DNA from: an uncultured Methylococcaceae bacterium
GTDB lineage: Bacteria > Pseudomonadota > Gammaproteobacteria > Methylococcales > Methylococcaceae
Direction: 5' to 3'
NCBI GenBank assembly: GCA_903859815.1
Contig: CAIOOA010000157.1
Span: forward strand, 1 to 44,822
DNA length: 44,822 nt
Under the pieces are notes generated by a model, which was not told the origin of the DNA, did no database searches, and saw only the letters and a program-made list of their open reading frames with translations. This document shows, piece after piece, positions 447 to 44,074 of the stretch. The first letter of the stretch is position 1. Each line of letters starts with the position of its first letter. The translations under genes and the position numbers were made by a program.

Positions 447-3320
447 TTAGCCGGTATTCCTCATCCCCGCCGCTATGGCATTGATGGTTCGCAACAACAC
501 CGTTGTCCACGGATTTTCCTCACCCGGTGCTTCAGGATATTCGCGAAGCCTACGTAAAAGGCTGATTTGCAGATGATTTAAAGGATCCAAGTAAATGTTG
601 CGTCTAGCCAGTGAAACAGCCAGCATAGGGTCTTCTTGCAACAAGTAATCCAAACCAGAAATCTCCAATACCTGTGAGCAGGTGCGATGGTATTCTGTTT
701 CTATCAGGCCAAAGATTCGGTTACCTACTTCCTCATCCAAACATAACCTAGCGTAACCCTTGGCTATTTGCATTTCCGATTTTAATAGTGACATTTGGGT
801 TTTGCCCAGTAGCGAACGCAAAAATGGCCAGTTTTGGTAAAGGTCGCGTAATTTTTCAAGATTGTGTGGTTCATCGCCCCTATAGGCTTCCAAGGCTTTG
901 CCGATTCCATACCAAGCGGGTAGGGTTTGTCGAGATTGCGCCCAAGCAAATACCCAAGCTATTGCTCGTACAGAAAATTTCGACCGATCACCTTTTTTTC
1001 GATAGGAAGGGCGAGAACCGATATTCATCAAGCCGATTTCGTTGAGTGGGGTCGCCTCGTAAAAGTAGTCCAAAAATCCCGGTTCGTGCTCGGTGAGCTG
1101 TCTGAAGTATCCCTCGCCGCGTTTGGCGATGGATGCCATCAGCTCCCCGTATTCCTCCGATTCTGTCTGTACCGGGCGGACGAGGTTGACACTGGCCTTC
1201 ATCAGGCCGCTCACACCCATGGTCAATTCATAGGCAGCAGTCTCGCGATTATTGTATTTGTAGAAAATGGTTTCGCCCTGCTCGGTGAATTTGATCTGTC
1301 CGCGCACCGTCCCCGGAGGTTGGGCCAAGATGGCTTCATGGGTCGGGCCACCCCCGCGTCCGACCGTGCCACCTCGACCATGGAATATCCTGCATACGAT
1401 GTCGCGCTCCTCGGTGATCCTGATGATTTTCTTTTGCGCCTCGTAAAGGTTCCACGCACTGGCTAGGATGCCGCCGTCTTTGCAAGAGTCCGAGTAGCCG
1501 AGCATGACTTCTTGACCCTCGCCGAATGCACGTAGGCAATCGCGGTAAAGGGGGTTGTCGAGCAGGGTCGTCAGCACCGATTCGATATGTTCCATGTCGC
1601 GAATGGTTTCAAACAGGGGGCTTACGCCTATATGGCAATAAACCCGTCCGGCAATGCGTCCGGCGAGTCCATGCTGTGCCCCGAGAAAGATCACTTCCAT
1701 CACGTTACTGGCAGAGTGTGTCATGGAGATCACATATCGACCAAAGCATTCAGGCCCAATTTCGCGGCGCATTTGCGCCATGACTTTGAACACGCGCAGA
1801 ATCTCGGCGGTGGAATCGCTGAGTTTCCTGAGGTCGTAGTCGAGTGCATTGGGGTTGGCAATGCCCTCGGCAAGCAGTTCAATCCTTTTCTCTTCCGTCA
1901 GGTCTAGGTAGTCGATATTCAGGGCGGCTTTGAGAATCTCGGCCACCGCTTCGGCATGGCGGGTGGATTCTTGCCGGACATCCAACTGCATGAGATGAAA
2001 GCCGAAGGTTTCAACCAAGCGGATAGTGTCCTGCAATGCGCTGGCGGCAATGGCCGCATCGCCATGGGCAATCAAAGAATCACGGATGATCAATAATTCT
2101 CTCAAAAAGCTTTTCGCATCAGGAAAGCAATCCTCGACATTGGTGGCCGGTTCTCCGTTGAGTTGCGAAATGATTGCGGCCATGTTGCGTTGGATGCGAT
2201 AGCGCAAAAACGCGATTTTGCGGCGGTAAGGCTCGTTTGCGAACAAGCTGCGCAAATGAGGGAAGGCATGGTCAGCCATTGCGTTGTCCTCTGCCAAACC
2301 GCGCAAGAATTGCTCGGACGGATTGCAAAAGCGACCTGAAAGCGAAAGCTCATCGTCCAATATTTCCAAGCGGCGGAGGTATTCTTCAAGTACGACCCGG
2401 GCTTGCATGCGCAAGGCGAGGACGGTCGTTTCCGACTTGACGTTAGGGTTGCCGTCGCGGTCGCCACCAATCCAAGAACCAAAGCGCAGGAAGCCCGGTA
2501 TGCGAATTTCCCTTGCGGCTTTCTCTCCGTAAGTATCGCGCACAGCCAAGCTTAAATTGCGGTAAATTTCAGTCACTGCTTGGAAAAGGGAATTGGGGAA
2601 ATAAAACAGTCCATTGCCAATTTCGTCTCTAACTTCCAGTTTGCGCGCCCGTAACTCATCCGTTTTCCACAAGATTTGGATCTGCGTTTGCAAGTGTTCG
2701 ATGGTTTGTGCGCGATAGAATCCTTGGCAGCGGGGGTCGTCAAGTTGTTCGATGTTGACGAAGATTTTGCGCAAGGCTTCGATGATGGTGCGTCGTTTGG
2801 CTTCGGTGGGATGGGCGGTCAGCACCGGCTGGTAGTGCAGTTTATCGAAAAGAGTCTGCAATTCTTGCTGGGTCATGCCCTCTTCGCGGAACAGCATCAA
2901 GGTGTCACGAAATGAACCTTTCCAAAAATGGCCGCCTTTCTCAGCTTGTTTACGCCGAAGCTTGAGTTGAAAAGCTTCTTCCGCGCTATTGGCCAAATTG
3001 AAGTAAAGTTGGCATGCCCTGACCATCTGTCCGACTGTTTCAGGTGGTAAGCTATTGATTATGGATAATAATTGTTGACGAAGGGTGTCATCATCGTGCA
3101 ACCGCAATTGGGCGAAGCCGTGTCTTATCTGGTGCAGGGTTTGAAATGTCTCAGGATCGGATTGGGCCTTTAGCACCCTCGCCAAAAGAACGCTCAACAG
3201 TCTTATGCGTTTGCGGAGTTCCCGGTAAAAATCGCGGGACTGGGTGCTAGACGCTTCCGGCTGCGTAATAGGGCTAGAGGCGGATGTAGGTGCTTGAGGC
3301 AAGGATGGCAGCGTTTGCAT
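447..3320 (-). CDS. ppc: Phosphoenolpyruvate carboxylase
   Basis: This 957-residue protein is PEP carboxylase, which forms oxaloacetate from PEP and bicarbonate and replenishes the TCA cycle in the cytoplasm. The family motifs are present: VLTAHPTEAKRRTI with the catalytic His, GYSDSCKDGG, the glycine-rich loop FHGRGGTVGRGGGPTHEAI, and the C-terminal GMRNTG on which allosteric enzymes depend. The first 30 or so residues are Ser/Pro/Thr-rich and precede the conserved fold. The length is slightly above the usual 880-940 residues because of this tail. The gene stands alone between a secreted-protein gene and an exporter operon. In a methylotroph the enzyme would serve anaplerotic CO2 fixation. 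Confidence 0.97.
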   Translation of the reverse strand: MQTLPSLPQAPTSASSPITQPEASSTQSRDFYRELRKRIRLLSVLLARVLKAQSDPETFQTLHQIRHGFAQLRLHDDDTLRQQLLSIINSLPPETVGQMVRACQLYFNLANSAEEAFQLKLRRKQAEKGGHFWKGSFRDTLMLFREEGMTQQELQTLFDKLHYQPVLTAHPTEAKRRTIIEALRKIFVNIEQLDDPRCQGFYRAQTIEHLQTQIQILWKTDELRARKLEVRDEIGNGLFYFPNSLFQAVTEIYRNLSLAVRDTYGEKAAREIRIPGFLRFGSWIGGDRDGNPNVKSETTVLALRMQARVVLEEYLRRLEILDDELSLSGRFCNPSEQFLRGLAEDNAMADHAFPHLRSLFANEPYRRKIAFLRYRIQRNMAAIISQLNGEPATNVEDCFPDAKSFLRELLIIRDSLIAHGDAAIAASALQDTIRLVETFGFHLMQLDVRQESTRHAEAVAEILKAALNIDYLDLTEEKRIELLAEGIANPNALDYDLRKLSDSTAEILRVFKVMAQMRREIGPECFGRYVISMTHSASNVMEVIFLGAQHGLAGRIAGRVYCHIGVSPLFETIRDMEHIESVLTTLLDNPLYRDCLRAFGEGQEVMLGYSDSCKDGGILASAWNLYEAQKKIIRITEERDIVCRIFHGRGGTVGRGGGPTHEAILAQPPGTVRGQIKFTEQGETIFYKYNNRETAAYELTMGVSGLMKASVNLVRPVQTESEEYGELMASIAKRGEGYFRQLTEHEPGFLDYFYEATPLNEIGLMNIGSRPSYRKKGDRSKFSVRAIAWVFAWAQSRQTLPAWYGIGKALEAYRGDEPHNLEKLRDLYQNWPFLRSLLGKTQMSLLKSEMQIAKGYARLCLDEEVGNRIFGLIETEYHRTCSQVLEISGLDYLLQEDPMLAVSLARRNIYLDPLNHLQISLLRRLREYPEAPGEENPWTTVLLRTINAIAAGMRNTG

Positions 3321-3425
3321 GACGTATTCCTAATTCAGGGGAGTAAAGGATTGTGTTTATCCTGCCACAAGAAATCGTCTGGAAAAAATTTATTGGTCTT
3401 TATGGGTTGCATTTTTGGTAAATGC

Positions 3426-4919
3426 TTAATTTACACTGCTTTGCATTTCTTGTGTTTGCCAGCCTCCGCCCAGTGCTTTATACAAAGCCACTAACTGTGC
3501 CGATAGCTTGGCTTGGCTGTCCACCAATTCCCGCTGCGTCTGGAACAAGGCGCGTTCTGCCGTCAGCACATCAAGATAGGCGGTCAGCCCCTTGGTGTAG
3601 CGCTCGATGGATAGGGTCAGTGCCAAACGCTGGGCTTCAACGGCTTTTTCCAATGATGCAATGCGAATCTGCTCTTGGGCATGGGCAACGAGGGCATCCT
3701 CGACCTCTTTGAACGCTTTTAACACAGTGGATTGATAGGTCAAGAAGCTTTGTTCGTTTAGGGCTTCCTTGGCGCGGAGATTGGCTTGCAGCCGTCCCCA
3801 GTTGAACACTGGCATACTCAGCGAAGAAAGCAGCGACCAAGATTGCCCCATGGGGGTCAAAGCGGTTAAATTGGTGTTTTGAGCGCCGAGAAAGGCATTC
3901 AGCTTAAGCTTGGGGTATAGCTCTGCTGTAGCCACACCGATATTGGCGTTACTGACGGCTAATTTGCGTTCGGCTTCGCGGATGTCGGGCCTACGGCGCA
4001 ATAACTCGGAAGGCAAATCTGCTTGTGCCGGATCGATGCTGGAAGGCAACGGCCCTTCCTGTTGCAAGCGGTGGGCGAACTTACCGGGGGCTTGCCCAAG
4101 CAGTATGCCCAATGCGTGTATGGATTGCCTTGCCAAGGCTTCGTAAACGGGTGCTTGGGAGCGAGTTTCCGCCGTTAGCCCTTCGGTTTGGGCCACTTCC
4201 AACTCCGAGGTCAGGCCGGCTTGATAGCGCAGGCGAACCAGTTCCAGCGTGTTTTCCTGGCTTTTGAGGTTGTCCCGCGTCACTGCCAGTAGTTGTTGGT
4301 TAGAGCGCAATTCGATGTAGTTTCTAGCCACCTCGCCCAAAAGGCTTACCAACACATTGCGCCGATTTTCCTCCTGTGCCTCTAAATTGGCTTCGGCAGC
4401 TTCGACGGACCGCCTGATCCCGCCAAAAATGTCCACTTCCCAAGACGCATCGAAACCCGTTTGGAAGATACTGATGGTTTGAGTACTGGTGTTGATGCCG
4501 CCGCCGCTCCCGGATAGCCCACCCACGCTCGCATTGCCGAAATTGGCATTGTTTTGGCGGCCCATGACATCAGTACGTGCGCTAAATGTAGGCAATAAGT
4601 TGGTAAAGCTGGAATCCCGGTTGGCGCGGGCTTCGCGGACTCGACTTTCCGCCAGTTTCAAATCCAAATTGGATTGGATGGCTGCTTTAATCAACCAGTT
4701 AAGGGTAGGGTCATTAAAGGTTTTCCACCAGTCGTTCAAGTGCATCGATTGTGGATCAGCCAATGGAGCCTCTGTCCAATGGGTTGGCACTTCGGTTTTT
4801 GGTTGGACATAGTCCGGGCCAACGGCACAACCTGCAACCAATAAACCGTTCATGCCTCCCATGAAGGCGATGCGAATCGCCAAAGTTACGAGTTCCGAGC
4901 TAGGCGTGGCAACATTCAT
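3426..4919 (-). CDS. Outer-membrane efflux lipoprotein, NodT/OprM-type TolC family
   Basis: This 497-residue protein belongs to the outer-membrane efflux channel family. A lipobox, LLVAGC with Cys about residue 31, is followed by AVGPDYVQPKTEVPTHW, typical of NodT/OprM lipoproteins. Two long coiled-coil OEP repeats follow, with ANLEAQEENRRN in the first half and the usual RRRPDIREAERKLA motif in the middle. It is the last gene of a five-gene operon, and its ATG shares one base with the TAA of the membrane fusion gene. It should complete a tripartite exporter through the outer membrane. The substrate cannot be told from sequence. The annotated N-terminus is long for a lipoprotein signal, so one of the inner Met codons (residues 20 or 23) may be the true start. 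Confidence 0.9.
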   Translation of the reverse strand: MNVATPSSELVTLAIRIAFMGGMNGLLVAGCAVGPDYVQPKTEVPTHWTEAPLADPQSMHLNDWWKTFNDPTLNWLIKAAIQSNLDLKLAESRVREARANRDSSFTNLLPTFSARTDVMGRQNNANFGNASVGGLSGSGGGINTSTQTISIFQTGFDASWEVDIFGGIRRSVEAAEANLEAQEENRRNVLVSLLGEVARNYIELRSNQQLLAVTRDNLKSQENTLELVRLRYQAGLTSELEVAQTEGLTAETRSQAPVYEALARQSIHALGILLGQAPGKFAHRLQQEGPLPSSIDPAQADLPSELLRRRPDIREAERKLAVSNANIGVATAELYPKLKLNAFLGAQNTNLTALTPMGQSWSLLSSLSMPVFNWGRLQANLRAKEALNEQSFLTYQSTVLKAFKEVEDALVAHAQEQIRIASLEKAVEAQRLALTLSIERYTKGLTAYLDVLTAERALFQTQRELVDSQAKLSAQLVALYKALGGGWQTQEMQSSVN

Positions 4920-5899
4920 TACCGTTTACCTGTTTTATTGGAGGGCGTGGTTTGCCGTTCGGGGGCTGTCTCTGGGGCTTCTATGAACACATCCATTTGT
5001 TGCCCCACGTAGGCAGGCATGGAGGAGCGGTCAAAGCTATAAAGCGCTTGCAGGACACGAGTGTCGACTCGCTCGGTGCTGTCGCCGGTCAAGGACTTTT
5101 TCGGAATGATGTAAGGCTCCACCCAAACGAGGTTTAAATCGGTCCTGAAATTGCGATTGCCGCGCAAATAGGCCACCGCTTTGCCTTCCTTGCGGAAGCG
5201 CCAAGCATCGTTTTCGTCAATGTCCACGCGGATGTGCAATTGATCCAAGTTGCCCAACACCATCAATGGGCTATTGCCCACGCCGGCCGGGGCGAATTCG
5301 CCGGGGCGAATATTGATCTGCAACGCTTCACCCGCCACTGGGGCATGTATCACCAAACGATCCAGCGTAGTCTGGGTGGCAGCCAGTTCGGCTTCATTTT
5401 GCAACACTTGGGCACGGGCGCTATCCGCCCTCGCTTTGGCGATCAAATAGGCGTTGCGCCTGCGGTCCAAGTCTTCCTTGCTGATGGCGCGACGGTCAGT
5501 CACTGCCTCAATCAGATCGAGCATGGATTTGGTGTCGGTGACGGAGGCTTCGGCTTCGCTGACCATGGCCTTGGCCTTGGCAAGATTGGCTTTGCGCACA
5601 CCCAATTCAGCAAGCACTTCACGGTCGTCAATGCGGAACAAGATGTCCCCTGCCTTCACTTTATCGCCGACCTTCACATTGACTTGCTGAATGATCCCGC
5701 TTAGCGGTGTTCCGACCGAAATATTCTGGCTCTTAGCCTCGACAATGCCCGCCCCTGCAATGAAGGAAGGGAAGGGCGAGTTTGCCGGTTCGGCAGCGGG
5801 TTGGGCGATAGGTGTAGGCTGGTTGCCGTTGACGACAGAATAAACGCCGAAGCCAAAGCCTATGGCAGCGAGTAAAGGTAGGGTGTATTTGGGTAACAT
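4919..5899 (-). CDS. HlyD/DevB-type membrane fusion protein of an ABC exporter
   Basis: This 326-residue periplasmic adaptor has one N-terminal membrane anchor (LPLLAAIGFGFGVYSVV) and a lipoyl/barrel half (AGAGIVEAKSQNISVG, VKVGDKVKAGDILFRID). An alpha-hairpin of about 90 residues, rich in Ala, Lys and Glu, follows. The second lipoyl half has DRLVIHAPVAGEALQINIRPGE. This layout is typical of DevB-like ABC adaptors rather than RND ones. It lies between the ATPase and outer-membrane genes and would link the inner-membrane ABC pair to the NodT-like channel. The short Pro/Thr-rich C-tail shows no domain. Confidence 0.9.
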   Translation of the reverse strand: MLPKYTLPLLAAIGFGFGVYSVVNGNQPTPIAQPAAEPANSPFPSFIAGAGIVEAKSQNISVGTPLSGIIQQVNVKVGDKVKAGDILFRIDDREVLAELGVRKANLAKAKAMVSEAEASVTDTKSMLDLIEAVTDRRAISKEDLDRRRNAYLIAKARADSARAQVLQNEAELAATQTTLDRLVIHAPVAGEALQINIRPGEFAPAGVGNSPLMVLGNLDQLHIRVDIDENDAWRFRKEGKAVAYLRGNRNFRTDLNLVWVEPYIIPKKSLTGDSTERVDTRVLQALYSFDRSSMPAYVGQQMDVFIEAPETAPERQTTPSNKTGKR

Positions 5900-22509: not shown

Positions 22510-23034
22510 TTAATCGGCCTGTTCGATGCGTTCGTCAGCAGTTTTGACAAATTCATGCAAGTTACTGTCTTTGGTCAGCGTGTCGCGTGGGATAATTAAA
22601 GCCGCGTCCAGAGATACATAGACGAATACATATTTCTTTTCCACTTCGATGCGCAGCACTTTTTTCCAAGGCAGCTTCTCTTCCCCATTGGCGCTGATCT
22701 CAACGAGATTGTTCTTTTCCGCCTTCAAGGTATATTGACCGAGGATGCAGGTTTTTTCCTCTTCGGTATACATTTGGCGAACTTGTTTGCGCATGTTCCA
22801 TCTTAAATAGAAGGGAACGCCCAAACCCCACCCCATCGCAATTAAGATCGTATAAACAGCCGAAGGTATATCTTTAAAGTAAAAGAACAATAATAGGGCG
22901 ATGAGAGCAATTACGCCGGGGATGGTGGCTTGATGGCGGCGGATCGTTTTTTGGATGCGTTCGGAATTTGCCAGCAAATGTTCATTGAAAGCAATCAGGT
23001 CTTTTTCACGCACTTCGTAGTGAATTTCTGTCAT
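22510..23034 (-). CDS. YcxB-like membrane protein
   Basis: This 174-residue protein has two transmembrane helices close together near residues 38-75 (IPGVIALIALLLFFYFK and AVYTILIAMGWGLGVPFYL). A C-terminal beta-rich domain has LPWKKVLRIEVEKKYVFVYV and ALIIPRDTL, the pattern of YcxB-like proteins. The function is unknown. It lies 32 nt upstream of the ABC-F start on the same strand and may share its transcript. Confidence 0.72.
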   Translation of the reverse strand: MTEIHYEVREKDLIAFNEHLLANSERIQKTIRRHQATIPGVIALIALLLFFYFKDIPSAVYTILIAMGWGLGVPFYLRWNMRKQVRQMYTEEEKTCILGQYTLKAEKNNLVEISANGEEKLPWKKVLRIEVEKKYVFVYVSLDAALIIPRDTLTKDSNLHEFVKTADERIEQAD

Positions 23035-23231
23035 TGTCTGTCCGTTTAATCGATTGATTTAAGTTAAACTATCAGCTTGCCCAAACTGAGCGTTGGCTGA
23101 GGTGGAGAAATGGTCTGCATCCGCTTTGGCGGTATTTTTAGGGTGACTAGTATACGCATTTCTGCTTCAATTTACCCCATGTTGGAAGCGTTTCTGCTTA
23201 CAACCCCACAAATTTCTTACAGGAGACGGTT

Positions 23232-23699
23232 ATGAAAGGCCACCCCCAAGTTATCGAACACCTTAACGCCTTGTTGGTTGGCGAACTGACCGCCATTGAC
23301 CAATATTTCCTCCATTCCCGCATGTATCAGGACATGGGATTGGAAAAATTGTTCACCCAAATTACCCACGAAATGGCCGAGGAGCAAGCTCACGCCGATT
23401 TGTTAATCAAGCGCATCCTGTTTTTGGAAGGCAAGCCGGATTTGACCAAACGAGACCCGATTTTGGTTGGCGAGAATGTGCCGGAAATGCTACGCAATGA
23501 CCTGACCTACGAATACAAAGTCATTCCCCATCTGCGCACCGTGATGGCGTTTTGCGAATCGGTGCAAGACTTTGAAACCCGCGACATTCTGTTGAAATTG
23601 CTGAAAGACACCGAGGAAGACCATACTTGGTGGTTGGAAAAACAGTTGCGCCTGATTGAAACGATTGGAGTGCAAAATTACATTCAATCGCAGATGTAG
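23232..23699 (+). CDS. bfr: Bacterioferritin subunit lacking the haem-ligand methionine
   Basis: This 155-residue four-helix protein is bacterioferritin. The di-iron ferroxidase ligands are intact: Glu18 ([13 protein letters not shown]), Glu51 and His54 (EEQAHAD), the Glu in LTYEYK, and Glu and His in DTEEDHTWW. The residue equal to E. coli Met52, the axial haem ligand, is Gln52 here. The protein therefore resembles the haem-free type subunit of two-subunit bacterioferritins. A second, Met52-bearing subunit may be encoded elsewhere. A good ribosome binding site (AGGAGA) precedes the ATG. The matching ferredoxin gene lies 4 kb downstream, beyond the DGR region. Confidence 0.92.
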
Positions 23700-23732
23700 T
23701 TAGATTTAAGATTCAAAGGGGATGGCGCAACC

Positions 23733-23847
23733 CTCGCGGCGGTTCCTGGAACAATCAAACGGACAACCTTCGCTGTGCGATCCGCAACAGGAACCATCCT
23801 AACCATCGAAACAACAATCTAGGGTTTCGGGTTGTCTTGGGTTCTCC
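23733..23847 (+). other. DGR template repeat (TR)
   Basis: This 115-bp segment aligns without gaps to 27251-27365 at the 3' end of the NACHT-FGE gene. There are 22 mismatches, and 21 of them fall on adenines of this copy; 21 of its 28 adenines are changed in the other. Read in frame it encodes an Asn-rich FGE tail ([20 protein letters not shown]), dense in AAC/AAT codons, as templates of diversity-generating retroelements are. The last 30 bp, which would include the homing initiation site, are identical in both. It starts 34 nt after the bfr stop, so bfr transcripts may read through it. Confidence 0.9.
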
Positions 23848-24021
23848 ATAGTTTCTTGTGGCTTGCATCCGGCAAACCGGCTTCATCATCCAAGATGCCC
23901 GGCGGCGGTGTAAGGACTAAACCAGCTTGCGTTATCCCCGGTCGCGCCTGTGCAAACAGCCGGCCTAATATTGAAACTCCCCCCGCATCCTGCTTGGCAC
24001 GGTGTGGGGATTTCAATTTGC

Positions 24022-24265
24022 ATCGTTCCCACGGTCTCCGCTCATCGTTATACCCAAGTCCAGCCGAGACGTAGTGCCGTCATTCCAGCAGGGATGCAGG
24101 AATCCAGTGCCATGGACGGTAACTCGTCGTTATGTAAGTGTTTGATTCAAGGTTCACACCAACCCGCAGATTCACCTCCCTGTGACTGGATTCCGGCAGT
24201 CCATGCCGGAATGACGGGCTTCAACCACTTGTGTATAAAGACGAGCGCGGAGCGTGGGAACGATC
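24022..24265. repeat. Nested inverted-repeat element between TR and target gene
   Basis: The outer arms are ATCGTTCCCACG (24022) and CGTGGGAACGAT (ending 24265), with partly matching CTCCGC flanks. The inner arms run from CCGTCATTCCAGCAGGGATG (24077-24108) to the complementary stretch at 24185-24217, starting ACTGGATTCC and ending GGAATGACGG. It resembles the dispersed GTCATTCC palindromes common in proteobacteria. No ORF is credible in it. The rest of 23848-24372 contains nothing recognised. Confidence 0.6.
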
Positions 24266-24372
24266 AACGATCAAAAAATAGCTGAAATTGCACGGTCGCA
24301 GTACTATTCATAAAAGTTTCTGGCAAAATAAAAGGGTTGATGGATTTCTAACTTACCTTGGCCCTGCCTTGC

Positions 24373-27372
24373 ATGAAAAAAGCAATCAAAAACCTACTTA
24401 TTTCAACGCTTTCTGTTGCGCTGATTCTTATCTTGCTGTGGATTTTCAAAGATAGGCTTTTTTCATTTTGGGATTGGTTACGGGACCAGCCCGACAGTAA
24501 TATCACCAAGTTTAATGACAGGCTAAGTTCTGTAAAAGAAGTTGGGGCTATCATCCTTGGGGTCGCTGGTTTGATCTCATTCATTATCCTATGGCCTTGG
24601 AAAAAAGATCAGCAGACAGAAACCCCCAATTCAGTCGGCAACCCCGTAGCCCCAATTCTCCCCCAACGCGATCTCGCCAAGCTGTATTACCGCGCCTTGG
24701 ATGAGAAATGCCAAATGGTCAGGCTGGAGATCATTGCCCCCGAGTTGGCGGGGAAAAAGTTAAGCTTGTCCCTGTCTGACATTTATCAAGACCAGCATAT
24801 TCGGTTGGCTGACGAAGCCAAGGGGCAGGACCGATTGCCAGAGTCCAGCGAGTCAATTCCGCTGATGCAGGCGTTGGCTAAATTGAAAGGCAAGCGTCTG
24901 GTCATACGCGGCAAGGTGGGCGCGGGCAAGACCTGTTTCGTCAACTACCTGACCCATAGCATCATCCAAAGCCAACAATCGACAGCAGTGGAATTGCCGC
25001 CGAGTATGACAAACCGACCTGTGGTTCGGTTGTTGTTGCGTGAACTGGGTTCCCGGTTGTGCGGCGAGATTCAGCCGGGGTTGTTGTGGGAGTCCATTAA
25101 AGCGGATGTCAACCAAGCGATCATCCAAGACTTGAAGGGGCATGGTAACCCGGAATTGCAACCGGTCGAGTTTGGCGGTTTTTGGGAGTCATTCCGCAGT
25201 TCATTTGAGCAACAAGGCATCTTGTTGCTGGACGGTTTGGATGAGGTATCGGAAGCGGAACACCGCCGGGAAAACTTGCGCAAAGCGATTGCCGAGTTTG
25301 CCAAAAACGCCCAACAGGTGTTCATTATCATCACGGGCCGGCCTTACGCTTACGAAACCGACACGCAAAGATTGGCAGGGTTCCAGCAAGCCGATCTGGA
25401 ACCGATGACCGAAACCCAAATCCGCGAATTCATCCGCCATTGGTATCTTACTGCCGGTCAATTTAACAAATGGGACGATAAACAAGCAGAAAGCCGGGCG
25501 CAGGAACTGGCGGAACAAATTTTTGCGCGGCCTTATTTGCCGGAAATGGCTTCCACAGCGATGTTGTTGACCTTGTTCATCGGTTTGGACTATTCGGGCA
25601 TACGCTTGCCTTCTTCCCGTGCCAAGCTCTATGAATATGCGGTTGGCTTGCTGCTGCAACGGTGGACCCAAAACCTCTTGGATCATTTGGCCAGTTTGGA
25701 GGCTGCCGAACGTCACGGCATGGAGGTGTTAAAACTGAATTATGAGGACTTGTTCAGAGCCTTGAAAAAGCTGGCCTATCAAACCTACGATGGTTTGCAA
25801 CCCAAGCCGGGGCAGAGCGATACCCCTGTGCTGGATTTCAGCCATGAATTAGTCATTGGGCAACTGTGTACCGGACTGGACACTCATGCACGCGATTCAG
25901 AACATTTGCTGTATTTCCTGCAATACCGCAGTGCTTTGCTGGTTGCGGGCAATGGCGAGGACAATTTCCAGTTTGCCCACAAATCGTTCCATGAATATCT
26001 GGCGGCCAGCCATTTACTCGACCAGCCAAAGTGGAGGGAGAAGGTTCAAGTGCTGCTGCGCAACAACTTGGAATGGTGGCGGGAGGTGTTTTTGCTGTTG
26101 GTGAAGAAATATTCCGATGGTCAATACGGGGATGCGGTACTGTTCCTGCATCATCTATTGTTGGGTGAATATCCTCAAGACGGAACCCTGCCACAAACGC
26201 ACTCGCAACAGGTCTTGTTGTTGGCGGCGACGGCGGGTTTGGAACTGGCGGTACACACGCGGCAGGACGATGTGCTGTATCAAAAATTCCACCGTTTCCT
26301 GCAATCCCGTCTGGTTGTTTTGTTGCACAGTCCGCAACTGTCGATAGCCGAACGTGCCGAAGCAGGCCGATTGTTGGGCGAACTGGGCGACCCGCGCCCC
26401 GGCGTGGGATGCATGACCCGCAACGGCGAACGAGTGACTCGCAAACGAGGTGTAAAGGAGTATAACTTGCCGGATTTTGATTGGCAGGAAATCCCGGCCG
26501 CCACCTTTCACATGGGTACGGATGGCAGTCAAGGTTACCAAGATGAAAAACCGGCTCATGATGTGTTTGTGCCGCGTTTCTTCATGAGCCGCTATCCCGT
26601 CACTAATGCACAGTTCCGTTGTTTTATTCAGGCTGGCCTGTATGAGGATGAGGAATTCTGGCATGACAAACTGCCTAAAGCGGCAAGGCTATGGCTCAAA
26701 GGCTCGGCGAGCGATGAACAACTGCTGGCGACTATTCCAGAGTCGTCACGCGAGGACTATAAGCGCTGGTTGCAAGCCGACCAGACCCGTACCCAACCCC
26801 GTTATTGGGCGAACCAGCAGTGGAATTTGGACAATCACCCGGTGGTGGGGGTTTCATGGTTCGAGGCGTTGGCCTATTCTGTCTGGCTTAATGAAATCTT
26901 GGAGGAGATTCGCCCCAACGGGCAAACCGAAGGTTTTTGCCTTCGTCTGCCCACTGAAGCGGAATGGGAATATGCCGCCCGTGGCACGGCGGGTTATGAA
27001 TATGCATGGGGCAACGAACCACCCGATGCCAGCAAGGGCAATTATGCTGACACGGGCTTGAAACGAACCTGTGCCGTGGGGCTATTTCCACCTGATGTGG
27101 CATATGGTTTGCATGAGATGAGTGGCAATGTGTGGGAATGGACTTTGAGTCGATGGGGAAAAGACTTTAATCGGTCTGATTTTACCTACGAACAGTGGCA
27201 AGGGCAGGAAAATGAACGTAATCTAGTCGAGCCAGTGGAGTTTCGAGTCTCTCGCGGCGGTTCCTGGTACGTTCGGGCGGACCTCCTTCGCTGTGCGGTC
27301 CGCGGCTGGGACCATCCTGTCATTCGGGACGTCATTCTAGGGTTTCGGGTTGTCTTGGGTTCTCCCTGGTGA
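24373..27372 (+). CDS. Membrane-anchored NACHT NTPase with C-terminal FGE domain; DGR target
   Basis: The protein has 999 residues from the ATG at 24373; the frame extends to a TTG at 24358, and neither has a good ribosome binding site. Two N-terminal helices (LISTLSVALILILLWIF and VGAIILGVAGLISFIILWPW) anchor it. A NACHT NTPase follows, with Walker A GKVGAGKT (180-187) and Walker B LLLDGLDEVSE (from 284). FAHKSFHEYLAA marks the winged-helix end of the NACHT module. An alpha-helical linker leads to an FGE-sulfatase/C-type-lectin-like domain (from about residue 700: IPAATFHMGTDG, RLPTEAEWEYAARG, MSGNVWEWT). The last 38 residues are the DGR variable region, where 14 residues differ from the template-encoded ones. 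The layout suggests a signalling STAND receptor with a diversifiable ligand-binding tip. Confidence 0.9.
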   Translation: MKKAIKNLLISTLSVALILILLWIFKDRLFSFWDWLRDQPDSNITKFNDRLSSVKEVGAIILGVAGLISFIILWPWKKDQQTETPNSVGNPVAPILPQRDLAKLYYRALDEKCQMVRLEIIAPELAGKKLSLSLSDIYQDQHIRLADEAKGQDRLPESSESIPLMQALAKLKGKRLVIRGKVGAGKTCFVNYLTHSIIQSQQSTAVELPPSMTNRPVVRLLLRELGSRLCGEIQPGLLWESIKADVNQAIIQDLKGHGNPELQPVEFGGFWESFRSSFEQQGILLLDGLDEVSEAEHRRENLRKAIAEFAKNAQQVFIIITGRPYAYETDTQRLAGFQQADLEPMTETQIREFIRHWYLTAGQFNKWDDKQAESRAQELAEQIFARPYLPEMASTAMLLTLFIGLDYSGIRLPSSRAKLYEYAVGLLLQRWTQNLLDHLASLEAAERHGMEVLKLNYEDLFRALKKLAYQTYDGLQPKPGQSDTPVLDFSHELVIGQLCTGLDTHARDSEHLLYFLQYRSALLVAGNGEDNFQFAHKSFHEYLAASHLLDQPKWREKVQVLLRNNLEWWREVFLLLVKKYSDGQYGDAVLFLHHLLLGEYPQDGTLPQTHSQQVLLLAATAGLELAVHTRQDDVLYQKFHRFLQSRLVVLLHSPQLSIAERAEAGRLLGELGDPRPGVGCMTRNGERVTRKRGVKEYNLPDFDWQEIPAATFHMGTDGSQGYQDEKPAHDVFVPRFFMSRYPVTNAQFRCFIQAGLYEDEEFWHDKLPKAARLWLKGSASDEQLLATIPESSREDYKRWLQADQTRTQPRYWANQQWNLDNHPVVGVSWFEALAYSVWLNEILEEIRPNGQTEGFCLRLPTEAEWEYAARGTAGYEYAWGNEPPDASKGNYADTGLKRTCAVGLFPPDVAYGLHEMSGNVWEWTLSRWGKDFNRSDFTYEQWQGQENERNLVEPVEFRVSRGGSWYVRADLLRCAVRGWDHPVIRDVILGFRVVLGSPW
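27251..27365 (+). other. DGR variable region (VR)
   Basis: This is the variable copy of the repeat at 23733-23847. Changes include AAC to TAC, AAT to GTT, CAA to CGG and AAC to GGC. The only change not at a template adenine is C to A at VR position 72 (27322). It codes for the segment from RGGSWYVRADLL to [10 protein letters not shown]. The last 30 bp are unchanged. The stop codon lies just beyond, at 27370. Confidence 0.9.
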
Positions 27373-27440
27373 TTTCTGAATTCTGTCTTCTGATTTCTGG
27401 TTCCTGCTTTGCTGTTTTCTGCTCTTGCTTTTGCTTTTTG
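27371..27440 (+). repeat. Degenerate TTCTG tandem tract
   Basis: The plus strand carries five exact TTCTG units plus degenerate ones (TTCCTG, TTTGCTG) at 7-8 nt spacing. The tract is strongly pyrimidine-rich and lies between the VR and the RT remnant. Confidence 0.55.
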
Positions 27441-27443
27441 GAA

Positions 27444-27469
27444 ACCGCGTAGCGGTCGCGATTTTTTTT
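27444..27469 (+). terminator. Short hairpin with T-run before the RT remnant
   Basis: ACCGC-gta-GCGGT (27444-27456) is followed by CGCG and eight T. It could be a weak terminator of the target gene or the hairpin often found 3' of DGR variable regions. It is about 80 nt from the VR, farther than usual for the latter. Confidence 0.4.
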
Positions 27470-27709
27470 ATGGCTAAATCATTCGATAATTTATATCCGC
27501 AATTGACCGAATTCGGCAATTTGCACCTTGCATGGCGCAAAGCGTCTAGGGGCAAGCGCGGCAAACCTGCCGCCGCCAGCTTCGAGTATAATTTGACCGA
27601 TGAATTGATCCATGATTTGGAGTTGATGGACAGCCGCCGCTACGAACATGCCAGCCGCCAGCTTGAGGAATTAGGCCGTTTGTTGGGGGCTTGGATAAAA
27701 TCTACCTAG
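27470..27709 (+). pseudogene. In-frame RT N-terminus / Avd C-terminus fusion, DGR remnant
   Basis: This 79-codon ORF begins at an ATG directly after a T-run. Residues 1-52 match the start of DGR reverse transcriptases, where the family has NL..QIT...NL..AYRK.S.GKR; here it reads NLYPQLTEFGNLHLAWRKAS, then RGKRGKP and FEYNLTDEL. From MDSRRYEHASRQLEELGRLL to the end (GAWIKST) it matches the last helix of the Avd accessory protein (E.GRILGSWI in the Bordetella phage protein). All RT catalytic motifs, including the YxDD box, are missing. The simplest reading is one in-frame deletion spanning the rest of RT and most of Avd. Both matches are by memory of the families. Confidence 0.75.
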
Positions 27710-27738
27710 ACAAAAAAACCGATTTCGTTTTTTGGTAG

Positions 27739-27767
27739 TTGATAATTATTCTCATCTGTGCTACGAT
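27739..27767 (+). promoter_or_regulatory. bfd promoter with overlapping Fur box
   Basis: TTGATA (27739-27744), a 17-nt spacer and TACGAT (27762-27767) form a promoter. TGATAAT-t-ATTCTCA (27740-27754) fits the 7-1-7 Fur consensus with one mismatch in the inverted half. It overlaps the -35 and spacer, as expected for repression by iron-loaded Fur. Confidence 0.75.
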
Positions 27768-27804
27768 GATCTTAAGTTCAACTCCGTTAAAGGTGCGAAA
27801 TCCT

Positions 27805-28011
27805 ATGTACGTCTGCATCTGCAAAAATGTGACTGACCGGCAAATTCGTCAAGCAGTCTACCAACAGGATGTGAGCAATATCCGCGAGCTTAGGTCGTGC
27901 CTTGGCGCCTGTGACCAATGCGGGAAGTGTGCAAGGGACGCAAAGGACATTATCCGTGAAGCCGCGTCTGAAAGGATGATGATGGAAACTCATGCGGCGA
28001 TGGCTTCTTAA
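27805..28011 (+). CDS. bfd: Bacterioferritin-associated ferredoxin
   Basis: This 68-residue BFD-like [2Fe-2S] protein has ligands Cys4 and Cys6 in MYVCICKNVTD and the later pair in GACDQCGKC. Bfd reduces bacterioferritin cores and releases iron under iron limitation. The ATG at 27805 was chosen because the longer frame adds 22 residues not found in the family and would begin inside the promoter. AAAGGTG lies about 10 nt upstream. A Fur box covers the promoter. The C-tail (RMMMETHAAMAS) extends beyond the minimal domain. Confidence 0.92.
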   Translation: MYVCICKNVTDRQIRQAVYQQDVSNIRELRSCLGACDQCGKCARDAKDIIREAASERMMMETHAAMAS

Positions 28012-28031
28012 ACCCGCCACTGACAAACACA

Positions 28032-28059
28032 AAAAAATGCGCCCAAAGGCGCATTTTTT
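28032..28059. terminator. Bidirectional terminator between bfd and the porin gene
   Basis: AAAAAATGCGCC pairs with GGCGCATTTTTT around CAAA. The stem is flanked by A and T runs, so it works in both directions. Confidence 0.85.
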
Positions 28060-28063
28060 ATAA

Positions 28064-28089
28064 TAAAAAAACGGGACTTCCTTATCCCG
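28064..28089 (-). terminator. Terminator of the porin gene
   Basis: CGGGA and TCCCG (28072-28089) form a stem with an 8-nt loop, followed on the minus strand by a T-run (28071-28064). Confidence 0.65.
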
Positions 28090-28104
28090 CCACCCAACAC
28101 AAAC

Positions 28105-41055: not shown

Positions 41056-43692
41056 TCAGTGTTTCAGGATGGGGGCGGCACACACCAAACGGAAGCCGAA
41101 GGAGCTGAGACGGTTGCCTGGATGGGAAGGGAGGCGGTAGGCGGCGCGCGCATTGACTTGGGAGTAGGACCAGGAGCCACCGCGCACCACACCTTCTTTA
41201 CAATTCTCAGCTTGCCAAATGGAACCGTCTGCCGGAGCATTCTGGTAGATCACATGATAGCAATCCGCCACCCATTCCCAGACATTGCCCACGGTGTCGA
41301 AGAGGCCGAAGGGATTGGGCTTGAAAGAACCCACCGGGGCGGTTTGCTTGTTATCCCATTGGCTACCGCAGTTAGTACAATTGGCCCGATTACTGCCGAT
41401 GTCATCACCCCACCAGTAAACCGTTGGCGTGCCAGCCCTTGCCGCATATTCCCATTCCGCCTCGGACGGCAAACGGTAATCCTTGCCCGTCTTTTTGGAC
41501 AACCATTGTGCATAGCAAACGGCATCTTCCCAAGATACATTAACTATCGGTTGCTCCCCGCGTCCCCATCCCTCATCGCTGACATTGACCTTGATTTCAT
41601 GTTTATCGACACAGCCGCCTTCGCTTTCAATCAGATGGGAGAACAAATCATATTCGTCAAAAGTGACCTCGTAGCGGCCTATTTGAAAAGGCTGTATCGT
41701 GACTTGATGTTGTGGCTTTTCGTATTCATCTGCTTTTTTATCCGAATCCGGCGATCCCATCAGGAATGAACCGCCGGGTATGTCCACCATCTCCGGTTGC
41801 AGCGTGTAAATCCCGGCTTTTGCCAGCACGAGGTAAAATCCGGCCCGTTTGCTAATGCGTTCTTGGTCCGCCCACTGGATGAATCCGGCAATCAGTATCA
41901 GCAAAACTGCCAAGCTACTCACCAAGCTTTGGGTAAAGCGTCGCCGCCGCACACCCAACTGGATATACTCCTTTTCCGGTTTGGTTAAATCCACCCGCTG
42001 TTTCTGCCAACGCTCCGCTTCCTTGAGCCTAGCCCCGGACAACAAGGCCGCGCCGTCGCGTTTGGCCTTATCCCAAGCTTCCATGGCTTCTTGCAAACGC
42101 TTGCGCCAGAGCAGGAATTCTTTATGATTATCCAGCCATTCCTGCAAGGTTCGCCAATGGTGGATCAAGGCTTCGTGGGCGACTTCCACGGTGTTTTCAG
42201 TCGTCACCAACAGCCGCGCATCCGCCAAACGGCGGACAATTTGTTTACTCGCCTCGTCCCACTCGGACCATAGGGCGCGGCGGCGGGTCGGGGGAGCGGT
42301 TTCGCTGACTTGCACCAATTGCAGGAAGATTTTCTCGACCTGCGGTTGTTCGGCGGCGGGTAGGTTTTGGTAGACCTTGTCGGCGGTGTAGGCAATGGCG
42401 CCTTCCAATTCGCCCATGGCTTCGTAGTCTTGATGGCGGAGCATTGCGCCGGGTTTGGCTTCCCACAAGCGCTGTAATACGAATTCCACCAAGGGCAAAT
42501 GACCGGGTTGATTGTCCACCGCCTTGATGATGCGTTCCGCCAAGCCGGATTCAAAACCGGTTTGCAATAAGGCGGCGGGTTGGGTGACGGCTTGCTGCAA
42601 TTCCTCGGCATTCATCGGACCCAAGTTCACTTGTCCGCCTTGCAACCTATCCGCCAAAAGTCGGTAGCCTAGCGCATCGCCCATGAAATCGGCCCGCAAA
42701 GTCAAGACTACATTCAAAGGGCTGGCAGTGGTCGCTTGCAAGAGTTGGTCGATGAAGGCCATGGAGTCTTGGGCAATCTTGCCGTCTTTCCTGCCATGGG
42801 TATAGAGTTCCTCCCATTGGTCCACGAACAGCAGCAAACGTCGGGTTCCCAATTGCTTAGCCAAAATACGGGAGATGACATCGCACAGTTCGATAGTGCC
42901 TTCTTGCAGCTTTAGAGCCAGTTTACCGATTTCATCCAGCCGGTCCACTTCGCGCAGGTCTGTTTCCAAAAGTGGCAACAATGCGGATGCCAGATGGCGG
43001 AAAGGCCGTCCACCGGGAACCATGGTGACGATTTCCCAAGGGCTTTGGGTTTCCTTGCGCAGTTTCGGAACCAAACCGGCGCGGACCACCGAGGATTTGC
43101 CACTGCCGGAAGGCCCGACCAAGGCAATGAAGGGGCGTTGTTGCACAGCTTGATACAATTCAGCAATGGCAAGCTCACGACCGAAGAAAAACGCGGCATC
43201 TTCCTCACGGAAATATTGCAAACCGCGATAAGGGCAGATCGTCGCCAAGGTTTCACGCTGGCGTTTCAACAGCAGGGCGGCGGGGGGTTCGCCCCGAATG
43301 GCGGCGGCAAGCAGTTGCAGGGAGAGTTCATCGGACAGGCCAGCGCGGAAATCCACCCAGGTGTTTTGGTTGAGGAAACCGAGCGGCGGTTCCGCTCCCG
43401 GCAATAATACCGGAATGACCGGGAAGCCTTTTTCCTGTGTCTGTCGATCTAAAGCAAGATTCTTTTCCCGTTGCTGCCAAGAACCCATTTCACCTTGCCC
43501 GACGCAGACCGCCACCGCGCCGCAACTCGCCAGTGCCTGTTCCAATAATTGCAGCCAAGGCTGGCCGGGGGTCAGATACAAGCGGTCGAGGAAGACATTA
43601 AGCTGTTGCGCCCGCAGCTTTTCCGCCAAGGCAAGGACCGAGGCTTGGTCGTGCCAATGGTAGCTGAGGAAAACGTCGTAATGGGTGGGCAT
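41056..43692 (-). CDS. TIR-nSTAND-TM-FGE protein, putative conflict-system receptor
   Basis: The protein has 878 residues from the ATG at 43692; a longer frame from a TTG is less likely. The TIR domain (1-140) starts HYDVFLSYHWHDQ and has W72xxxE76, matching the spacing around the catalytic Glu of TIR NADases. An nSTAND1-type NTPase follows (CPYRGLQYFREEDAAFFFGR, Walker A GPSGSGKS 193-200, Walker B LLLFVDQWEEL). A helix near residues 588-608 (SLVSSLAVLLILIAGFIQWA) leads to an FGE-sulfatase domain (VDIPGGSFLMGSP, RLPSEAEWEYAARAG, GNVWEWVADCY) that ends in a lectin-like tail. It lies 7 nt after the TumA-like gene and is likely cotranscribed. A defence role by NAD depletion is inferred, not shown. 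Confidence 0.88.
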   Translation of the reverse strand: MPTHYDVFLSYHWHDQASVLALAEKLRAQQLNVFLDRLYLTPGQPWLQLLEQALASCGAVAVCVGQGEMGSWQQREKNLALDRQTQEKGFPVIPVLLPGAEPPLGFLNQNTWVDFRAGLSDELSLQLLAAAIRGEPPAALLLKRQRETLATICPYRGLQYFREEDAAFFFGRELAIAELYQAVQQRPFIALVGPSGSGKSSVVRAGLVPKLRKETQSPWEIVTMVPGGRPFRHLASALLPLLETDLREVDRLDEIGKLALKLQEGTIELCDVISRILAKQLGTRRLLLFVDQWEELYTHGRKDGKIAQDSMAFIDQLLQATTASPLNVVLTLRADFMGDALGYRLLADRLQGGQVNLGPMNAEELQQAVTQPAALLQTGFESGLAERIIKAVDNQPGHLPLVEFVLQRLWEAKPGAMLRHQDYEAMGELEGAIAYTADKVYQNLPAAEQPQVEKIFLQLVQVSETAPPTRRRALWSEWDEASKQIVRRLADARLLVTTENTVEVAHEALIHHWRTLQEWLDNHKEFLLWRKRLQEAMEAWDKAKRDGAALLSGARLKEAERWQKQRVDLTKPEKEYIQLGVRRRRFTQSLVSSLAVLLILIAGFIQWADQERISKRAGFYLVLAKAGIYTLQPEMVDIPGGSFLMGSPDSDKKADEYEKPQHQVTIQPFQIGRYEVTFDEYDLFSHLIESEGGCVDKHEIKVNVSDEGWGRGEQPIVNVSWEDAVCYAQWLSKKTGKDYRLPSEAEWEYAARAGTPTVYWWGDDIGSNRANCTNCGSQWDNKQTAPVGSFKPNPFGLFDTVGNVWEWVADCYHVIYQNAPADGSIWQAENCKEGVVRGGSWSYSQVNARAAYRLPSHPGNRLSSFGFRLVCAAPILKH

Positions 43693-43699
43693 ATTCCGC

Positions 43700-44074
43700 T
43701 TATGCCAGTTCGGCCTCAAGTCGAAATGTCTTCGCCCCCGCCCTTACCTCTTTAATCCGGCCTTGACCAGGCAAATTTTTTGATTCTACCGTCACGATAC
43801 CCAGTTTTTCCAATTCATCCACATCGCGTTTAACAGCGCTACGATGTCTATGTACTCGCCCAGCCAGTTGGGTGATTGAACCGGGTTGCTCTTTAATAGT
43901 TTTTATCAATGCCAAACGCGTTGTTGACAACAGCTTGAGTAGCTCAGATGGATCATCAAAACTAATCACGCAGTGTTCAGGTAGGGTCGAGCCAGCATCG
44001 GCTAACTTTGCGATTACACGACCCCGGTGAAAGAATTCTGTTTCCGATTCTGGTTTGATTGTCAGAGTTTTCAT
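43700..44074 (-). CDS. TumA-like antitoxin, HTH (HVO_A0114-type) regulator
   Basis: This 124-residue protein has a winged helix-turn-helix in its second half (TQLAGRVHRHRSAVKRDVDE, LEKLGIVTV) and a short N-terminal arm. It pairs with the TumE-like gene upstream, overlapping it by 4 nt (ATGA), the usual sign of a toxin-antitoxin operon. It would neutralise the toxin and autoregulate the operon, which appears to include the TIR-STAND gene. The N-terminal domain, not the HTH, is the probable toxin-binding part. Confidence 0.72.
   Translation of the reverse strand: MKTLTIKPESETEFFHRGRVIAKLADAGSTLPEHCVISFDDPSELLKLLSTTRLALIKTIKEQPGSITQLAGRVHRHRSAVKRDVDELEKLGIVTVESKNLPGQGRIKEVRAGAKTFRLEAELA

Follow-up and report, generated by a model that had tools for sequence, protein, structure and literature searches.

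An adenine-specific repeat pair in an uncultured Methylococcaceae bacterium points to a chromosomal diversity-generating retroelement that has lost its reverse transcriptase core

The question raised by contig CAIOOA010000157.1 of an uncultured Methylococcaceae bacterium (44,822 nucleotides, all of which were analysed and are referred to here as the window) is whether a pair of 115-bp repeats, one of them ending a gene for a NACHT-FGE protein, belongs to a diversity-generating retroelement (DGR), and by which reverse transcriptase (RT) it could have been diversified. It covers contig C157 of assembly GCA_903859815.1 (here G000; 5.8 Mb, 315 contigs, 99% complete) in full. Template repeat (TR), target gene and variable repeat (VR) very probably belong to a chromosomal DGR from which a 1,166-bp deletion has removed its own RT core and most of its Avd. 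The features of the locus are as follows.

23719-24009, plus strand: non-coding stretch conserved in four genomes, made up of the TR and about 160 nt on its 3′ side; presumed TR RNA with spacer
23733-23847, plus strand: TR1, template repeat, non-coding
24358-27372, plus strand: target gene (1004 aa), with two hydrophobic N-terminal stretches (seen by eye), a NACHT NTPase and a C-terminal FGE-type domain
27251-27365, plus strand: VR1, variable repeat, 3′ end of the target gene
27444-27456, plus strand: inverted repeat ACCGC-GTA-GCGGT, candidate target hairpin or cruciform, with CGCG and a T run behind it
27470-27709, plus strand: deletion stump, an in-frame fusion (79 codons plus a stop) of the first 47 RT codons and the final 32 Avd codons; junction at about 27610

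The repeat pair and its target gene

TR1 and VR1 align over 115 bp without gaps and with 22 differences, 21 at template adenines and one a C>A change, as the initial annotation had described. The changes from TR1 to VR1 are 12 A>G, 8 A>T, 1 A>C, and 1 C>A; 21/28 template adenines are altered versus 1/87 other bases (Fisher p = 4.6e-16), so that all but one of the changes are confined to template adenines, as expected for a DGR. Codon positions 1, 2, and 3 carry 12, 8, and 2 of the changes (20/22 at positions 1 and 2), and 14/37 encoded residues differ; the present VR1 therefore has 14 residues off template in the lectin-like domain of an NLR-like NTPase, the number of tail changes first proposed. 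No other segment of the window comes close to this match: the runner-up to TR1 on the plus strand, ungapped, is identical at 49/115 positions versus 93/115 for VR1, and the best minus-strand match reaches 57/115. The final 30 bp of the two repeats, which include one template adenine, are identical and represent a candidate initiation of mutagenic homing (IMH) region, as the initial annotation had proposed (for this part of the further VRs, see below). The sole non-adenine exception lies at column 72, where the TRs of three related genomes (G001, G002, and G005) carry an A; at this column it appears to be TR1 of G000, rather than VR1, that has changed, the template having lost an adenine.

TR1 was also considered as a piece of an intact FGE gene and rejected in that role: of the 255 positions of the Pfam FGE profile it matches only 198-254, and its FGE frame ends at a stop after GSP.

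The target protein matches the Pfam families NACHT (1.3e-9) and FGE-sulfatase (3.1e-54), and its sequence matches in the PDB are mostly FGE and EgtB-type proteins, including 2y3c, Treponema denticola variable protein 1 (3.2e-9), which we take to be a DGR variable protein. VR1 thus lies at the 3′ end of an open reading frame with a C-type lectin (CLec)/FGE-type fold, as judged by sequence alone. Compared with its orthologue at locus L049 of G002, the protein is identical at 887/964 residues before the VR and at 24/40 from the VR start on. NACHT and FGE domains are present, and no PADLOC model matches the protein at 1e-5. The protein may sense invaders.

Further variable repeats of TR1 in the same genome

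A search of the G000 assembly with TR1 identified two further VRs, at C153:101355-101468 and C251:10174-10287, which end a TIR-nSTAND1-FGE and a TIR-NACHT-FGE gene, respectively. The C153 VR differs from TR1 at 19/28 adenines and 1/87 other bases (at column 1), and the C251 VR at 14/28 adenines and 7/87 other bases. In the IMH part, the C153 VR differs only at the template adenine, column 89, while the C251 VR has two non-adenine differences (columns 101 and 104). At column 72 the C153 VR carries C, the derived letter of TR1. VR1 and the C153 VR, each identical to TR1 at 86/87 non-adenine positions, are about as close to their template as VRs in RT-bearing genomes, suggesting that writing either ended recently or still continues.

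An intact sister locus and the deletion

The same genus includes an uncultured Methylococcaceae metagenome-assembled genome (G002) whose locus L049 (CAIYXP010000528.1) has the order TR, NACHT-FGE target, RT, Avd, located as follows.

152-266: TR
462-3488: NACHT-FGE target, with its VR at 3367-3481
3541-4671: RT, with an ATG at 3592
4668-4997: Avd

The G002 RT matches RVT_1 (5.6e-18); its top solved structure is 8ub7 (2.5e-50), presumably the Bordetella phage bRT, ahead of group II RTs (8e-17). It contains the motifs GNLTSQ, which we take to be a hallmark of DGR RTs, and YVDD. The G002 Avd scores 110.4 bits with the NCBIfam model DivGenRetAVD, above the cut-off of 80.

Compared with L049, the window lacks 1,166 bp (L049 3734-4899) at a clean junction, and the flanks align on both sides with 92-95% identity to G002. 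What is left of the DGR-type RT in the window is the N-terminal stump, and what is left of Avd is its C-terminal 32 codons (Pfam bAvd positions 75-106, 23.8 of 40 bits, under the curated cut-off); the stump was also recovered by RT and Avd searches of its own genome. Cis diversification is therefore impossible from the contig as assembled. Since the RT and Avd are not intact here while the repeats fit a DGR, degenerate or non-autonomous DGR is the most fitting name for the locus as it stands. Accordingly, the original reading of the locus as a DGR stands for the repeat pair, with its adenine-specific changes, its non-coding TR and its VR ending an FGE reading frame, and does not extend to a complete DGR.

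Of the 47 RT codons in the stump, 8 differ from G002, and at all 8 of these G000 carries the codon of G001 and/or G005; no change is unique to G000, nor has any of the 32 Avd residues changed. Codon 19 (H) is shared with G005, the more distant genome, and not with G001 or G002. The stump thus appears to have decayed little or not at all, which fits a recent loss; the RT loss may be recent or strain-specific. The dN/dS of the first 47 RT codons is low in all pairs (0.03-0.27) and higher in pairs with G005, values based on too few sites to date the G005 RT loss.

The RT-Avd locus on contig C274

The search of the G000 assembly identified one intact DGR RT, on contig C274, together with an intact Avd, its own TR (TR2) and an FGE target with a VR (VR2) that differs from TR2 at 14/31 adenines and 3/84 other bases. 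Between this RT and the G002 RT cognate to the TR1 family, identity is only 44%. Apart from C274, the only RVT_1 match in G000 was the RT on C30, which was rejected as a DGR RT because it is a group II intron RT (GIIM and RVT_N domains; TIGR04416 above cut-off).

Template and variable repeats in related genomes

Among 101 genomes searched for TR1 relatives, four (G000 itself and three with a TR at least 88% identical to TR1) represent the family; the RT is kept in two of them and lost in two. In G001, TR and VR are on C572 and RT and Avd on C251; these contigs are probably neighbours, as the end of C572 overlaps the start of C251 by 141 identical bases. G005 has a separate RT deletion with other breakpoints, which left about 100 RT codons and a nearly whole Avd.

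The four genomes contain 11 VRs of the TR1 family, 7 of which (one or two per genome) match their own TR with 0-2 non-adenine mismatches; compared with the TR of another genome, VRs show 5-17 such mismatches. TR and fresh VRs thus seem to change together by lineage, and VR variation is demonstrated at the between-species level. In the three related genomes the substitutions are not spread evenly over the template bases: 5/8 VRs have 0-2 non-adenine differences from their own TR, and the other 3/8 have 7-11 (of 86-87) plus 12-15 altered adenine sites. Cis VRs of the RT-bearing genomes match their own TR at 84/86 (G002) and 85/85 (G001) non-adenine positions; the corresponding values for drifted VRs are 80/87 for G000 C251 and for the G005 cis VR, and 75/86 each for the VRs on C274 and C88 of G002. 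The pattern in G005, where a remote VR on C141 is fresh (86/87) although the cis VR has drifted, is suggestive.

A fifth genome, G003, contains two TR1-type VRs (L084 and L090). By eye, most of their non-adenine departures from TR1 are common to both, and one is distinguished from the other mainly at adenine sites, pointing to a further, unseen TR.

Hairpins downstream of the variable repeats

The inverted repeat ACCGC-GTA-GCGGT, a candidate for the hairpin or cruciform found downstream of DGR VRs, with a 5-bp stem and a GTA loop, occurs 66-92 nt past the VR in 6/11 TR1-family VRs (VR1, C153, G002 C528, C525 and C274, and G001 C252). ACCGC-GAA-GCGGT follows the VR of G001 C572, a 4-bp version is present at G005 C141, and broken forms are found at the remaining three (G000 C251, G002 C88, and G005 C113). 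VR2 is followed, 45 nt past its end, by a longer stem of 8 bp, again with a GTA loop. The 170 nt behind TR1 and the 170 nt behind TR2 hold no GNA-loop hairpin.

A survey took in 76 sites for which 250 nt of downstream sequence were available and set aside 6 others with shorter flanks. A GCGNAGC-centred stem of at least 4 pairs was identified within this distance in 19/53 VR-like sites versus 1/23 TR sites, the one TR site being the G005 TR (7-bp stem); the motif is absent from 34/53 VR-like sites, and it was found at 0/53 of them upstream and at 4/53 on the other strand. The p-values of this survey are too small, as many sites are related. Within the TR1 family, a stem of at least 4 pairs is kept in 7/7 VRs with at most 2 non-adenine mismatches versus 1/4 with at least 7 (p = 0.024), a link noticed post hoc among 11 related VRs, to which G002 C274 runs counter. 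Another reading is that these hairpins, where they precede a T run, are intrinsic terminators.

How the variable repeat could have been written

The reading of the locus as a chromosomal DGR that lost its RT and Avd is carried by the adenine-specific TR/VR relation, the two further VRs of TR1, the order TR, target, RT, Avd in the sister genome, and the deletion itself. By analogy with DGRs in general, an RT-Avd complex would copy the TR RNA and misread adenines, the cDNA would replace the VR at the end of the NACHT-FGE gene, and the IMH together with the downstream hairpin would mark the target. VR1 may have been written by the cis RT before its recent deletion, or may still be written in trans by an RT such as that of C274.

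Several points weigh against the reading as a cassette that lost its RT. Two are found in the repeats: 4/11 TR1-family VRs have 7-11 non-adenine mismatches to their own TR, and the VRs on C274 and C88 of G002 are nearer to the G000 TR (7 non-adenine mismatches, 80/87 matches) than to the TR of their own genome (11). Others lie in the assembly, a draft of 315 contigs, so that strains with an intact RT or unbinned contigs may exist. The VR on C116 of G000 (L018) matches the TR of G002 C257 (L075) at 74/74 non-adenine positions and differs from it at 17/28 adenines, and no TR for it was found in G000, where the TR-like pattern fitted by the G002 TR matches only TR1 and TR2; DGR parts or loci are thus probably missing from the assembly, and the RT and TR counts are lower bounds.

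That the cassette died recently, its own RT having last written VR1 shortly before the deletion and TR and VR now being fossils, has not quite an even chance of being correct. The little-decayed stump, with its 8 shared codons and unchanged Avd residues, is consistent with such a recent death, although codon 19, common only to G000 and the more distant G005, may be a G000 change. Column 72, with A in VR1 and C in the present TR, would fit a TR that changed once writing had ended; however, the derived C in the C153 VR is compatible with later writing, while A-to-C mutagenesis would give the same letter.

It is possible, if doubtful, that the RT-less TR1/VR1 pair is still active, served in trans by the RT-Avd of C274 or of an unassembled locus. 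An intact DGR RT and Avd are available in the assembly, a GTA-loop hairpin stands behind both VR1 and VR2, two RT deletions with different breakpoints (G000 and G005) have both kept the TR, and the remote G005 VR on C141 is still nearly identical to its TR outside adenines; trans action also has a published precedent in Thiohalocapsa PB-PSB1 (PMC10907252). On the other hand, the C274 RT is distant from the cognate G002 RT and has its own TR, and no similarity was noticed, by eye only, between the regions behind TR1 and TR2. The little decay of the stump, moreover, fits a loss that may be too recent to require trans activity, which therefore need not be invoked.

We consider it rather unlikely that the deletion is an effect of strain mixture or assembly, present in some cells only, with intact-RT cells doing the writing. 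DGR 3 and DGR 7 of PB-PSB1 do have intact-RT variants (PMC10907252), and the G000 assembly is a draft; however, the contig is unbroken across the junction between well-conserved flanks, and the separate deletion in G005, with its own breakpoints, suggests that losses of this kind are real. An origin of the pair by plain duplication of an FGE gene end followed by divergence, which the number of FGE genes in G000 might favour (35 profile matches, two of them TRs), is ruled out by the one-sided substitutions, as the initial annotation had argued, by their recurrence in remote VRs and other genomes, and by the non-coding nature of the template.

A broader proposal, which we regard as unlikely, is that the RT-less cassettes of the genus are working non-autonomous DGRs, whose own RT was repeatedly shed because one RT-Avd of the genome can copy foreign templates and aim at any VR with the common GNA-loop hairpin. 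If this were true, a single enzyme would serve a dispersed repertoire of FGE-tailed sensors. The related genomes with and without a cis RT share the same template and represent a natural experiment, in which the ability of one DGR RT to serve a foreign template can be tested directly.

Comparison with known systems

Thiohalocapsa PB-PSB1 provides published examples of DGRs that have NACHT/STAND-CLec targets, remote VRs and loci lacking an RT. Nine DGR loci with NACHT/nSTAND1/TIR-CLec targets are described there, as are degenerate loci without key machinery, and for some targets a TR at another place in the genome is the best explanation (Dore et al. 2024, PMC10907252). The G000 system resembles it in being chromosomal, in its NACHT, nSTAND1 and TIR proteins with a C-terminal CLec or FGE variable domain, in its many targets, and in its degenerate loci and remote TR. 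It differs in that the host is a Methylococcaceae-like draft genome and that RT and Avd were lost in a single clean deletion, as seen against a sister genome of known sequence. TR/VR, IMH, homologues of Avd and RT, and a hairpin downstream of the VR are shared with the DGR of Bordetella phage BPP-1 (PMC3240598). The published hairpins have a stem of 7-10 bp and a 4-nt GRNA loop 4-34 bp after the VR (PMC3240598); those described here, in contrast, have a 5-bp stem (8 bp at VR2) and a 3-nt GTA or GAA loop 66-92 nt after the VR (45 nt at VR2). Cyanobacterial DGRs (PMC7517822) likewise have remote targets scattered in the genome, and a TR/VR remnant without a nearby RT is mentioned there, but the lineage differs and the present case has a deletion junction defined by a sister genome. 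In the literature searched, no paper joined "diversity-generating retroelement" with a word starting "methylococc", while some joined it with "methanotroph". The DGRs that diversify NLR-like proteins gain a Methylococcaceae-like lineage in which VR-like FGE tails form a large repertoire.

The presumed TR RNA

About 290 nt from the TR onward are largely conserved in the four genomes, with little conservation past that. In G001 (C572, L080), an insertion of about 66 nt interrupts the otherwise conserved region 3′ of the TR, and this sequence was left out of the structure prediction. In the structure predicted from the other three of the four sequences, 0/92 pairs show a two-sided change, and the fold is thus without covariation support. 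An Rfam search of positions 23000-28100 gave two matches, both under their gathering scores.

The FGE repertoire of the genome

From the 35 FGE profile matches in G000, 30 loci were fetched and 22 VR-like segments identified (two in one locus, L019), counting only segments with a GGSW or GGSF...GFR motif. At the six template-Asn positions, which were set from the motif and not from each VR's own TR, 124/132 codons of these segments end in C or T, compared with 1222/2200 in the 100 codons upstream and 394/550 in the rest of the segments. Compared with the best of 23 TRs, 21/22 segments show an excess of adenine changes at one-sided p < 0.01 (19 at p < 0.005; L028 has p = 0.077); these p-values carry no correction for having picked the best-fitting TR, and part of such an excess comes from conserved framework residues. 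Only 4/22 segments have their own TR in the assembly.

One such tail is found in the window itself, on a TIR-nSTAND1-FGE gene (41056-43719, minus strand) in which 6/6 template-Asn codons end in C or T; the best TR of the genus differs from this tail at 17/72 non-adenine sites, and neither a closely matching TR nor a GNA-loop hairpin behind it was found. On contig C144 of G000, two neighbouring FGE matches (L023 and L024) are both VR-like relative to TR2, each differing from it at 23/84 non-adenine positions.

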